A DNA stretch of 64,000 nt from Geopsychrobacter electrodiphilus DSM 16401 (GTDB lineage: Bacteria; Desulfobacterota; Desulfuromonadia; Desulfuromonadales; Geopsychrobacteraceae). The stretch spans positions 4,004,501-4,068,500 of the forward strand of contig NZ_ARWE01000001.1 in assembly GCF_000384395.1 (NCBI RefSeq). Reading direction: 5' to 3'. The position numbers and the translations under genes were made by a program. A model generated the notes under the pieces. It searched no databases. It was not told the DNA's origin and saw only the letters and a program-made list of their open reading frames with translations. Positions within the stretch are counted from its first letter, which is position 1, and each line of letters begins with the position of its first letter. Below, in pieces: positions 49,313 to 53,930 of this stretch.

Positions 49313-49732
49313 TCAATAGATCGGAATATTCCCCGCCCGATAGCGTATAAACGCTACAAGCTCCCAAATTTGCTCCGCACTTAAGTGCTGCCCCCAGGGA
49401 GGCATGACAGAGCCTGCACTGCGAAAAGGTTCTCTTCTGTTCCCATGCTCGATACGCAGGTAAAGATATCCAGGAATGGCCGTTCGATAGCGAAGTTCAT
49501 GGAAATCTGGTGCAGCCAGGCTGAACCCTGCGGTGCGGTGGGTCCGACCTTCAGCCAGACTACCATGGCATTCGGCACAATGAGCCTTAAACAGCAGTTG
49601 CCCCTGTTCGATCTGCCGCTGGTTCCCCAAAAGTTTTGGCGGCGGGATCGGCAGCTCGCCTTTGTGGGTCTCACCACAAGCGGACAGCAATAGCAACAGA
49701 ATCAGGAAAAAGGCCTCTTTGATCGTCAGCAT
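49313..49732 (-). CDS. Mono-haem c-type cytochrome lipoprotein
   Basis: About 139 residues from ATG 49732 with AAGGG upstream. A lipoprotein signal (MLTIKEAFFLILLLLLSAC, Cys at about 19) precedes a single class-I cytochrome c domain. The haem-binding CAECHG is at about residue 51 and a distal Met is likely in GSVMPPWGQHLSAEQIW. It is predicted to be anchored to the outer membrane or inner membrane outer face, carrying one electron. It stands alone between pckA and the hydrogenase operon, with no visible partner. The long leader upstream in the open frame is not part of the protein. Confidence 0.85.
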   Translation of the reverse strand: MLTIKEAFFLILLLLLSACGETHKGELPIPPPKLLGNQRQIEQGQLLFKAHCAECHGSLAEGRTHRTAGFSLAAPDFHELRYRTAIPGYLYLRIEHGNRREPFRSAGSVMPPWGQHLSAEQIWELVAFIRYRAGNIPIY

Positions 49733-49901
49733 TGAAATCCCTTTTTGCCTGCACGAACTTATAGTGGAAACGAAAATTCGATGCCTGCCCTCAGAATTTT
49801 GGATCACTTGCGAAGTCACAGCGCCTGCTTAGGGGGTAGACAGGACTAACTCACCAGAAAACTTCGTGCCCCTCCTCCGGGCCAAAAAATTGCCAAGTTG
49901 T

Positions 49902-49959: not shown

Positions 49960-50436
49960 TCAAGCAGCACGCAACGGCTGGCCCCAATCCTTTAGTTCAG
50001 TCAAAACCCCAGCGATCACCTCTTCAAAAGCCGCCGCGACCTTGGGTGACAGTTCCATACGCATTTCGACCAGAGCCGACTGTGCCCCGATCACCACCAA
50101 AACACCCGGCAGGTTCCCCTGAAGTTCAGCGACCGCCAGCAGATCCTGCAGTCCCATCTGATGAACGGATAATTTATTGGCAAAGGCCCGTGGAACCTCT
50201 TCCCCTTCAAGACGAAATACAACGCCTGGCTCCGCCCCCATCTCCAGGGCATCGATAATCAACAGTTTTTCGATCCCCTCAAGACGCGGAAGCAGATCAA
50301 GCCCCAGAGTACCACCATCCAGCAAACTCACCTCTTCACACGGCACGAAACGTCTCTCAAGTTCGGTAATCACGCGGCTCCCGAGCCCATCATCACTCAT
50401 CAGCAGATTACCAAGGCCCATCACCAGAATCGACAT
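49960..50436 (-). CDS. hyaD: [NiFe]-hydrogenase maturation endopeptidase (HyaD type)
   Basis: About 158 residues with the HycI/HyaD/HybD signatures: ILVMGLGNLLMSDDGLGSRV at the N-terminus, LLIIDALEMGAEPG with the metal-binding Asp (about residue 62) and the SVHQMGLQDLL histidine motif. It removes the C-terminal tail of the large subunit after nickel has been inserted. The natural substrate is the neighbouring HyaB, whose tail after DPCLACAVH is visible. Its ATG overlaps the hyaC TGA (TGATG). Confidence 0.95.
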   Translation of the reverse strand: MSILVMGLGNLLMSDDGLGSRVITELERRFVPCEEVSLLDGGTLGLDLLPRLEGIEKLLIIDALEMGAEPGVVFRLEGEEVPRAFANKLSVHQMGLQDLLAVAELQGNLPGVLVVIGAQSALVEMRMELSPKVAAAFEEVIAGVLTELKDWGQPLRAA

Positions 50437-51089
50437 CAAAGATCCTTCGGATCAATAAACTTGTAGCCGCCGAAGATCGAACCGAGTGTGCCATTCTTCT
50501 CTTTCACATCCATCAGCCAGCCGCTGTAGACATGGTGGATAGCAAAACCGATGAGTAGCCACATGATCATATGGTGGGTCAGCCTCAGCCCCTGATTACT
50601 AAAGAGACTCAAGAATGGTGCCGTCACGCTCGCCCAGAGACCATTAGGATCGTACTGCCCGTAGAGCGCAAAGCCGCTGACAATCTGCAGCGTAAAGAGC
50701 ACAAAGACAAAGGAATAAGCTATGCCCGCCAATGCATTATGCCCAACGACGTAGGGAACTTTTCTGCGCAAGAAGGTGTACCAGGAGAAAGTGCCAATAA
50801 TATTCCGCCAACCCTCTTTCGAGGCCCAAGGTATAAAAGCCGTCCACCTCGCATACTTGTTCCCAAAAAACATCCAGAGCAGCCGCACGACGAACGAAAC
50901 GGCAAAGAGATAGGCAAAACCGAAATGGACCGCACGCATCCAGCCCATGACAAATGAGCTGGTTTTTGGAACAGACAAATTCGGATTGCCAATATAAATC
51001 CCGGTCACGGACAGGGCAATGATCGAGAGGACAATAAACCAGTGGGTCAGGCGTACCGGCCATTCCCAGACGTAGCGTCTTTGCAGCAT
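50436..51089 (-). CDS. hyaC: Hydrogenase cytochrome b subunit (HyaC)
   Basis: 217 residues with four TM helices and haem-b ligand histidines in RLTHWFIVLS (about 15), MRAVHFGFAY, GHNALAGIAY and LTHHMIMWLL / AIHHVYSGW. It matches Ni/Fe-hydrogenase b-type cytochromes. It anchors the small subunit at the periplasmic face and passes electrons from H2 oxidation to the quinone pool. It lies 18 nt after hyaB and overlaps hyaD by 1 nt. Confidence 0.94.
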   Translation of the reverse strand: MLQRRYVWEWPVRLTHWFIVLSIIALSVTGIYIGNPNLSVPKTSSFVMGWMRAVHFGFAYLFAVSFVVRLLWMFFGNKYARWTAFIPWASKEGWRNIIGTFSWYTFLRRKVPYVVGHNALAGIAYSFVFVLFTLQIVSGFALYGQYDPNGLWASVTAPFLSLFSNQGLRLTHHMIMWLLIGFAIHHVYSGWLMDVKEKNGTLGSIFGGYKFIDPKDL

Positions 51090-51107: not shown

Positions 51108-52820
51108 CTAAAGGGCCCTGACCTTGATAATTTCATTCCCGCGGCCATCAAACAAGTGAACCGCACAGGCGAGACAAGGATCAAACGAATGAATAGTCCG
51201 CAAAATCTCAAGCGGTTGCTCCTCGTTGGCGATGGGTGTTCCGACCAGCGCAGATTCATATGGACCCATCTGGCCGGCGGCATCACGTGGCCCGGCATTC
51301 CAGGTCGAAGGCACCACCGCCTGGTAATTGGCAATTGCGCCATCTTCGATGCGGATCCAGTGCCCCAGTGCGCCCCGCGGTGCTTCATGGTAACCGAAGC
51401 CCTGGGCCTCTTTCGGCCAGGTAGATGGATCCCATTTTTCGGCATTATGAACTTCGAGAATGCCGCGCCCCATATTGTCGATCAGCTGCTTCAACCAGAG
51501 CTCTGTCTTTTGGGCCAGCATCAGACAGTCGATGCCGCGAGCCGCGGTCCGTCCAAGGGTCGAAAAGAGGGCTTCGGGCCCAACACCAAGCGTCTTGAGA
51601 ACATGCCCAACGATCGCCTTCGCATCTTCATTCCCGCTGGCATATGCCACCAGCACGCGAGCCAGAGGCCCAACTTCCATTGGTTGATCCATGTATCGCG
51701 GTGACTTGACCCAGGAATATTTACCGTCGGTATCCAGGAATTCATAAGGCGGTTTAGGCCCGGTATAGTTGGGCGTAGTTTCACCATCGTAGGGGTGCTT
51801 GCCCTTGGCATCGCCACCGCTGTAGCTGTACCATGAATTTGTAACGTATTCTGTAATCTTCTTCTCGTCCATCTCCAGCACATTGGCAATATCCTTACCC
51901 ATAATTACGCCACGCTGAAAGTAGAGGCTGTCTGTCCCACCACTGTTGTCCATCGGATAATCGCCGTAGGAGAGATAATTACCAACCCCACCACCAATCG
52001 CGGCCCAATCCTTGTAAAAAGAAGCCACCGCCAGCAGATCCGGGATATAGACATTCTCGACAAATTTTCGCGCCCTTTTAAGCAACTTACCGATCAGTGC
52101 CAACCTGTCGTCGTTCAAGGCATTCTGACTATTCGGATCCATAGGAATCGCCATCCCGCCAACTAGAAATGTCTGGGGATGTGGATTTTTAGAGCCAAGA
52201 ATCGCATGGATCTTGATAACATCCTTTTGCCATTCAAGGGCTTCCAGATAGTGCGCAACCGCCATCAAATTGGCTTCCGGCGGCAATTTATAGGCGCTAT
52301 GCCCCCAGTAGGCGTTCGAAAAAGGTCCGAGACGACCGGTCCCGACAAAGGCCTTGACGCGCTCCTGAATCCCCTTGAAATACTTGGCGCTAGACAACGG
52401 CCAATCAGACACCGATTGCGCCAACTGAGCAGTTTTTTGCGGGTCTGCAGAGAGGGCGCTGACGATATCGACCCAATCTAAGGCATGCAGGTGATAGAAG
52501 TGAATAACGTGATCCTGCATATTCTGAATCGCCATAATGATGTTGCGGATCAGGCGGGCATTGTCAGGAATCTGAATCTTTAGCGCATCTTCAACGGCCC
52601 GAATGCTCGCCATCGAATGGACCGTGGTACAGACTCCACAGAAGCGCTGGGTGAAGTGGTGTGCATCGCGGGGATCACGCCCTTTCAGAATGGTTTCAAT
52701 GCCGCGAAAGGCCGTCGAGGAACTCCAGGCATCCAGAATGCGCCCCCCTTCGACTTTCGCCTCAATCCGCAAATGGCCCTCAATGCGGGTAATGGGGTCA
52801 ACTACAATCTTCTTGGCCAT
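51108..52820 (-). CDS. hyaB: [NiFe]-hydrogenase large subunit (HyaB)
   Basis: 570 residues. The L1 motif RFCGVCTTVHS (about residue 60) and L2 motif DPCLACAVH (about 550) supply the four cysteines that bind the Ni-Fe(CN)2CO centre. After the L2 histidine, the tail LFDGRGNEIIKVRAL is the segment removed by HyaD. The size and RIEGHLRIEAKVE start are those of membrane-bound group 1 uptake enzymes. Located at the periplasmic side with HyaA, exported by its partner's Tat signal. It oxidises H2. Confidence 0.97.
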   Translation of the reverse strand: MAKKIVVDPITRIEGHLRIEAKVEGGRILDAWSSSTAFRGIETILKGRDPRDAHHFTQRFCGVCTTVHSMASIRAVEDALKIQIPDNARLIRNIIMAIQNMQDHVIHFYHLHALDWVDIVSALSADPQKTAQLAQSVSDWPLSSAKYFKGIQERVKAFVGTGRLGPFSNAYWGHSAYKLPPEANLMAVAHYLEALEWQKDVIKIHAILGSKNPHPQTFLVGGMAIPMDPNSQNALNDDRLALIGKLLKRARKFVENVYIPDLLAVASFYKDWAAIGGGVGNYLSYGDYPMDNSGGTDSLYFQRGVIMGKDIANVLEMDEKKITEYVTNSWYSYSGGDAKGKHPYDGETTPNYTGPKPPYEFLDTDGKYSWVKSPRYMDQPMEVGPLARVLVAYASGNEDAKAIVGHVLKTLGVGPEALFSTLGRTAARGIDCLMLAQKTELWLKQLIDNMGRGILEVHNAEKWDPSTWPKEAQGFGYHEAPRGALGHWIRIEDGAIANYQAVVPSTWNAGPRDAAGQMGPYESALVGTPIANEEQPLEILRTIHSFDPCLACAVHLFDGRGNEIIKVRAL

Positions 52821-52823
52821 CGT

Positions 52824-53930
52824 TTAATCCTCCTTCTCATGCGGACCAGAATCATCCTTGCGCAGTGCGCTCACAACTCCATGGGCCCCGAAGGCCACCG
52901 CCGTCGCCGCCGCAATACCCAGGCCGATCTTATCCGCCGTCGCCTCGATTCCAAAACCTGGGACATTCGGCAACCGCTTATAGAATGGCGTCATCGTATC
53001 CCAGAACTGTGGCTCACTGCAGCCGATGCAGCCATGCCCTGACTGGACTGGCCAGCTGGTCCCTTCGTTATAACGAACGGTCGGGCAGTTATGGAAGGTT
53101 TCCGGTCCCTTGCAGCCCAGCTTGTAGAGACACCAGCCCTGCCTATGACCGGCATCGCCGAAACCTTCGGCATATTGGCCAGCATCAAAATGGGCGCGAC
53201 GTTCGCAATTGTCGTGAATCCGTTTGCCATAGGCAAACTTTGGCCGGCCCAGATTGTCGGTTGCCGGAAGTTTGCCGAAAGTCAGAAAATGAACGATGGT
53301 CGCCGTCAGATTAGTAGCATTGAGCGGGCACCCCGGCAAATTCAACACAGTTGCGCCCGGAACGGCCTTTGAAACCGAGATTGCGCCGGTTGGATTGGGC
53401 GCTGCAGCAGGGATTCCCCCGAAGCAGGCGCAAGTACCTACCGCAATCGTGGCCGCAGCATTGCCGCAGACTTCACGCGTGATATTCAAGGCAGAGTTTC
53501 CGCCAATCGTGCAATGAATACCCCCCTCGACGGTCGGGATCGAACCCTCAACGATAGCGATATATTTCCCCTTGTACTTCTCCATCGTCTGACGTCTGGC
53601 GGCCTCGGCCTGGTGCCCGGCGGCGGCCATGAGGGTTTCATGATAATCGATCGACAGATAATCAAGAATAATTGCGGTTGCTGTCGGTTCATTAGCGCGC
53701 AGGAAGGCTTCTGTATCTCCAGTGCATCCCAGAAACTCCATCCAGATCACGGATGGCCGATTGTCGGCCTCAATTGCCTCGGCAATCCTCCCCATCATCG
53801 TCATCGGCAAAGCGAGTGTTGCGGTCATCACCGAGCAGAATTTCATAAAATCCCGACGGCTAACGCCACGTGTTTCCCAGCGCCGCAGAATCTCTTCCGG
53901 AATCTGGGCATTTTGCTGCTGACTCGTCAT
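52824..53930 (-). CDS. hyaA: [NiFe]-hydrogenase small subunit (HyaA) with Asp at a proximal-cluster position
   Basis: 368 residues. A Tat signal (SRRDFMKF at residues 24-31), then the iron-sulfur domains: GCTGDTEAF (residues 68-76), GTCACFGG, LNLPGCP, and the medial/distal cluster region with CLYKLGCKGP and GHGCIGCSEPQFW. A C-terminal TM anchor (IGLGIAAATAVAFGA) follows. The usual proximal-cluster motif is C-T-x-C; here the second Cys is Asp (codon GAT at 53717-53715). It carries electrons from HyaB to HyaC. First gene of hyaABCD; divergent from the epimerase gene with a long regulatory gap. Confidence 0.97.
   Translation of the reverse strand: MTSQQQNAQIPEEILRRWETRGVSRRDFMKFCSVMTATLALPMTMMGRIAEAIEADNRPSVIWMEFLGCTGDTEAFLRANEPTATAIILDYLSIDYHETLMAAAGHQAEAARRQTMEKYKGKYIAIVEGSIPTVEGGIHCTIGGNSALNITREVCGNAAATIAVGTCACFGGIPAAAPNPTGAISVSKAVPGATVLNLPGCPLNATNLTATIVHFLTFGKLPATDNLGRPKFAYGKRIHDNCERRAHFDAGQYAEGFGDAGHRQGWCLYKLGCKGPETFHNCPTVRYNEGTSWPVQSGHGCIGCSEPQFWDTMTPFYKRLPNVPGFGIEATADKIGLGIAAATAVAFGAHGVVSALRKDDSGPHEKED

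Follow-up and report, generated by a model that had tools for sequence, protein, structure and literature searches.

The window, a stretch of 64,000 nucleotides from the genome of Geopsychrobacter electrodiphilus DSM 16401, encodes on its minus strand a [NiFe] hydrogenase in the order small subunit, large subunit, cytochrome b, protease. Family matches bear out the HyaABCD operon type named in the original prediction, which had singled out an aspartate in the small subunit at the place of a proximal-cluster cysteine. In the features below, Asp/Asn rows are 95 aligned small subunits with Asp or Asn at position 72.

52824..53930, minus strand: hyaA, [NiFe] hydrogenase small subunit, 368 aa (TIGR00391, 457 bits; Tat signal, TIGR01409)
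53706..53735, minus strand: stretch flagged earlier, residues 66-75, F-L-G-C-T-G-D-T-E-A by translation
53724..53726, minus strand: Cys69, first proximal ligand (Cys in 95 of 95 Asp/Asn rows)
53715..53717, minus strand (plus-strand ATC): Asp72 codon GAT at the second proximal-cluster Cys position (sequence, alignments, controls)
53430..53432, minus strand: Cys167, third proximal ligand (Cys in 95 of 95 Asp/Asn rows)
53328..53330, minus strand: Cys201, fourth proximal ligand (Cys in 95 of 95 Asp/Asn rows)
51108..52820, minus strand: hyaB, [NiFe] large subunit, 570 aa (RFCGVC and DPCLAC(AVH) motifs; family matches)
50436..51089, minus strand: hyaC, hydrogenase b-type cytochrome (TIGR02125 above cut-off)
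49960..50439, minus strand: hyaD-type maturation protease (TIGR00072 above cut-off; TIGR00140 slightly below its cut-off)
49313..49819, minus strand: small cytochrome c-like gene, downstream (match present in 21 of 80 named loci)

In profile searches HyaA scores above cut-off for both TIGR00391 and NiFe_hyd_SSU_C (PF14720), and its C-terminus is a hydrophobic stretch which, on visual inspection and by comparison with HoxK in the alignment, is a putative membrane anchor. In HyaB we take RFCGVC and DPCLAC to be the nickel-binding motifs L1 and L2. These motif names also appear in PMC5364354. The small cytochrome c-like gene is a putative member of the hya operon. The genome of the window holds a single small-subunit match of family PF14720, one full-length large subunit with one weak partial match elsewhere, and a full-length HypF. 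Among the named loci (the best 80 of at least 574 relatives), the order small subunit, large subunit, cytochrome b, protease on one strand is complete in 62; the other 18 are without some part of it, several owing to a contig end. Two arrangements stand out in this set. In Geobacter sp. UBA4057 (L072:8819-9868) a second small subunit gene, its product 60% identical to the window HyaA, stands between the genes for cytochrome b and the protease; L144 has such a second copy too, with Asp, and the first copy of that genome is identical to that of L072. In Bacterium BMS3Bbin05 (L052:6457-9916) nearly 3.9 kb separates the small and large subunit genes, a stretch with four plus-strand ORFs of at least 100 aa, one of which bears YVTN-like repeats by eye.

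The motif C69-T-G-D72 was read as predicted in the translation of the 368-aa ORF and in the alignments, and the GAT codon is as clear as had been claimed: the plus strand reads ATC at 53715-53717, and the nearest relatives agree. In five alignments shown against solved small subunits, D72 is aligned to the Cys of C-T-G-C or C-T-C-C. The named controls carry Cys at this position in HoxK and E. coli Hyd-1 (both C-T-C-C) and in Hyd-2 (C-T-G-C), in keeping with the expectation that C-T-x-C is standard and C-T-C-C marks the oxygen-tolerant enzymes; they carry Asp in HofK (C-D-G-D) and Asn in Huc (C-S-G-N). The two additional cysteines of the oxygen-tolerant [4Fe-3S] type are absent from HyaA by alignments and controls, with G71 and G172 in their places.

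Does another cysteine take over the missing ligand? C69, C167 and C201 are all intact in HyaA. Together with six medial and distal cysteines, these positions are Cys in 94-95 of the 95 Asp/Asn rows, the one exception being a gap, and no conserved Cys that could substitute for site 72 was found among these rows. The nearby C169, considered as a replacement ligand, is ruled out, as it is Cys in just 7 of the 95; the alignment check proposed with the original prediction thus left Asp72 without a substitute. An AlphaFold2 model of HyaA alone, built from a 20-row alignment, was of too low a confidence to assess the site: its mean pLDDT was 54.5, and residues 68-106 were below 50.

We then asked how far the substitution extends among relatives. 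A relative was found in 155 of 297 genomes of the phylum. In 29 listed loci from other genomes of the phylum, position 72 is Asp in 19, Asn in 2 and Cys in 8; identity to HyaA is highest for the 21 Asp/Asn loci (59-77%), and the Cys loci come next (53-56%). Forty more stretches, hand-picked from the phylum matches, comprise 2 with Asp and 38 with Cys. In two of these 38, L173 (G179) and L176 (G288), it is the first proximal Cys that is replaced by Asp (D-T-G-C), which is an already known kind of change, Cys-to-Asp at proximal position 1 being tabulated for Methanosarcina barkeri (PMC4070099). A pattern scan of a wider genome collection gave at least 597 stretches, at least 574 of them encoding relatives, from which the best 80, the top of a longer ranking, were taken. 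Seventy-eight of these best 80 cover position 72, with 48 Asp, 26 Asn and 4 Cys; L049 and L096, where the position is missing, are outside this count. The four named relatives nearest to the window HyaA, which include a Geopsychrobacter MAG, share 88-90% identity with it.

A tree was computed by a quick method from 149 small-subunit rows (153 minus 4 duplicates) with the motif columns excluded; 58 of its 146 inner branches are unsupported. HyaA falls among other group 1 rows, in a clade of 92 (SH-aLRT 95) that has 64 Asp, 25 Asn and 3 Cys, so that 89 of its 92 rows, drawn from several phyla, are non-Cys at position 72. In the 57 rows outside this clade, Cys prevails with 49; 6 rows have Asp, among them two of group 1h, and 2 have Asn. 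Named members of the clade include Geobacter, Geomonas, Oryzomonas, Trichlorobacter, a Frankiaceae and a Chloroflexaceae MAG, a membership that matches the published description of group 1f (PMC5364354); Asn occurs in several of its Acidobacteriota, Myxococcota and Actinomycetota. The five rows nearest to HyaA and the entire 19-row branch around it carry Asp, which refutes a sequencing or assembly error at codon 72; no support for such an error was found, and its probability is negligible. Over the whole tree, a three-state count requires at least 14 changes among Asp, Asn and Cys, where shuffled labels need 64 on average, so the states are clustered on the tree yet have switched several times; supported branches alone require at least 5 changes for Asn. 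A four-row Asp branch (L102, L103, L107, L111; Nitrospinota/Nitrospirota) sits among Cys rows in the 149-row tree. An independent origin of Asp in this branch is unsupported, since grouping it with the 1f clade fits better (lnL 7.55 higher, p-AU 0.614; 81 thinned rows).

By its clustering with named Geobacter-type Hya sequences, HyaA is placed in the group 1f (Geobacter Hya) type, a label that for the clade rows comes from PMC5364354. It has the group 1f trait, Asp or Asn at proximal position 2. The Geobacter group 1f Hya, termed 'oxygen-protecting' in HydDB, has a like operon, and with named Geobacter, Geomonas and Oryzomonas loci inside the HyaA clade it differs from the window HyaA only in being from another genome. 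HydDB terms the role of group 1f unresolved.

How does HyaA compare with other hydrogenases that lack the cysteine? The parallel drawn at the outset with group 1h of Ralstonia eutropha (now Cupriavidus necator) holds for the residue: HofK of HofK/HofG (PDB 5AA5) likewise has Asp at the proximal position, in C-D-G-D. In sequence, HyaA does not group with HofK, which is remote from it (E 8e-25; branch 2.25 changes per column), sits with one relative on a distant branch and has different gene neighbours. The group 1h enzyme was studied by Schafer and others, whose work the papers used here cite. A group 1h small subunit is reported to have neither Tat signal nor C-terminal membrane helix, and the proximal [4Fe-4S] of the group 1h enzyme to be bound by three Cys and, as fourth ligand, Asp (the latter cited in PMC5364354, as is the former). 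The gene for HofK itself (L115:4963-6018, C. necator pHG1, WP_011153986.1), whose product is identical to PDB 5AA5 chain A, is annotated 'hydrogenase expression protein HypE', and two HofK relatives on other plasmids bear the same label. Huc, the group 2a enzyme of Mycobacterium smegmatis (PDB 7UTD, 7UUR), is also non-Cys at position 72, but differs in having Asn (C-S-G-N), [3Fe-4S] in all three cluster positions and a different complex. The group 1d enzymes HoxK and E. coli Hyd-1 share the small-subunit family, a Tat-type start and a C-terminal extension with HyaA; they have C-T-C-C and two extra Cys for [4Fe-3S], which HyaA does not. The literature covered also included PMC10017518, PMC8498564, PMC4747160, PMC5037454 and PMC8691401.

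The Asp-for-Cys swap is thus genuine, yet it is what this enzyme branch usually carries, and it has been in print since 2014. Table 1 of PMC4070099 (2014) lists Cys to Asp at proximal position 2 for Geobacter metalloreducens and Cys to Asn at the same position for Nostoc punctiforme, and PMC5364354 (2016) states the substitution for the group 1f enzymes of Geobacter, Roseiflexus and Frankia. The original prediction stands as to residue, operon type and 1h parallel; as a surprise it does not, Asp or Asn being the rule in the clade and published in 2014 and 2016. What we report is a known trait in one more genome, and the substitution itself is not new. A count and a tree of the three residues inside the clade were not met in the cited literature; they invite, and do not prove, a functional reading. 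The set brings together rather close relatives with each of Asp, Asn and Cys at the same ligand position and is usable to probe the ligand's effect.

From sequence, alignment, conservation and operon, we infer cluster type, potential, electron route and physiological role as follows. HyaABCD would be membrane-anchored and face the periplasm. H2 would be oxidised in HyaB, and electrons would run along the three FeS clusters of HyaA, proximal, medial and distal, to the cytochrome b HyaC and on to the quinone pool. The proximal cluster would be held by Cys69, Cys167 and Cys201, with Asp72 in fourth place, most likely as an oxygen ligand to one iron of a [4Fe-4S], as reported for group 1h and, in the proximal cluster of a different group, for FrhG. 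We consider it probable that HyaA belongs to a group 1f-type HyaABCD in which Asp72 serves as the O ligand of such a site-differentiated proximal [4Fe-4S], a normal state inherited within the clade and not a mutation of this genome. Searches of solved structures and full-text literature found no structure or spectroscopy of any group 1f enzyme. C81D and C81N variants of the Alteromonas macleodii [NiFe] hydrogenase, homologous to the natural cases, gave measurable H2 evolution; the parent of the Asp variants had already been altered, H2 evolution was their sole assay, and they showed lowered activity and poor small-subunit processing (PMC4070099).

Could the proximal cluster instead be a [3Fe-4S] on the three Cys, with Asp72 close by and not bound to iron, by analogy with the Asn of Huc? 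Because Asn is natural in the clade and Huc, with Asn in C-S-G-N, has only [3Fe-4S] clusters, this has to be considered for HyaA; the repeated interchange of Asp and Asn in the tree and the finding that artificial substitution in PsaC can yield [3Fe-4S] (background in PMC4070099) point the same way. Against it, group 1h has Asp at the matching position and is reported as [4Fe-4S] on three Cys and Asp (PMC5364354). Residue 200, adjoining the ligand Cys201 (window 53331-53333), also gives a weak hint that the two forms are not equivalent: in 71 named rows it is Gly in 46 of 46 with Asp and Ala in 16 of 25 with Asn, a contrast weakened by possible shared descent, since many of those Asn rows form one clade. 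On this evidence we regard a [3Fe-4S] in HyaA as unlikely. The pairing of Asp with [4Fe-4S] in HofK and of Asn with [3Fe-4S] in Huc suggests by analogy that cluster type may go with the residue. Near-neutral drift, in which Asp, Asn and Cys would all be functional and have no oxygen-related role, fits with the tolerance of Asp and Asn in a related hydrogenase (PMC4070099), with Cys in 3 of 92 clade rows and with an Asp-ligated proximal cluster in FrhG of a methanogen. FrhG belongs to the F420-reducing hydrogenase, a group 3 enzyme. There the proximal cluster is held by three Cys and Asp60 (PMC3930138), a likeness to D72 by description and not by alignment. Yet a non-Cys residue in 89 of 92 rows over several phyla exceeds what unconstrained drift would lead one to expect, and we give drift a modest though real chance.

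Does the ligand bear on oxygen? A shift of cluster potential and oxygen response by Asp72, as first proposed, is a plausible hypothesis. Tremblay and Lovley (2012) is said to be the paper on Geobacter Hya and oxidative stress. Asp-ligated iron is described as aerobically labile in Pyrococcus ferredoxin (background in PMC4070099), which would offer a testable, unproven link to oxygen. A simple equation of Asp with O2 protection is disfavoured, because methanogen FrhG is also Asp-ligated and because members of the clade vary in having Asp, Asn or Cys at the position. We surveyed COX1-type oxidases (PF00115, E <1e-50) in genomes that are mostly MAGs by record title, with completeness unstated, and found them in 26 of 26 Asn, 36 of 48 Asp and 1 of 4 Cys genomes (Fisher p 0.006, Asn vs Asp). 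This limit was picked with the data already in view, and a limit of 1e-130 leaves 16 of 26 Asn and 25 of 48 Asp genomes. Supported branches provide 4 lineage-independent pairs, in which the oxidase follows Asn in 0.9 on average and never the opposite, and the sign test is not significant. An assignment of Asn to aerobes and Asp to anaerobes was not adopted, given four independent pairs without significance and two COX1-type oxidases in the Asp-bearing genome of the window.

A ligand switch within the 1f clade is a speculative and rather improbable reading of the same pattern: Asp would give an O-ligated [4Fe-4S] whose labile iron is lost and regained on O2, Asn a fixed, higher-potential [3Fe-4S], and Cys would be kept in a few Chloroflexota. 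If true, it would make the clade a natural series for how the ligand sets catalytic bias and O2 response. Three Chloroflexota members of the clade, L069, L104 and L105, have Cys at position 72 (C-A-G-C) and are natural comparators for the Asp and Asn forms.
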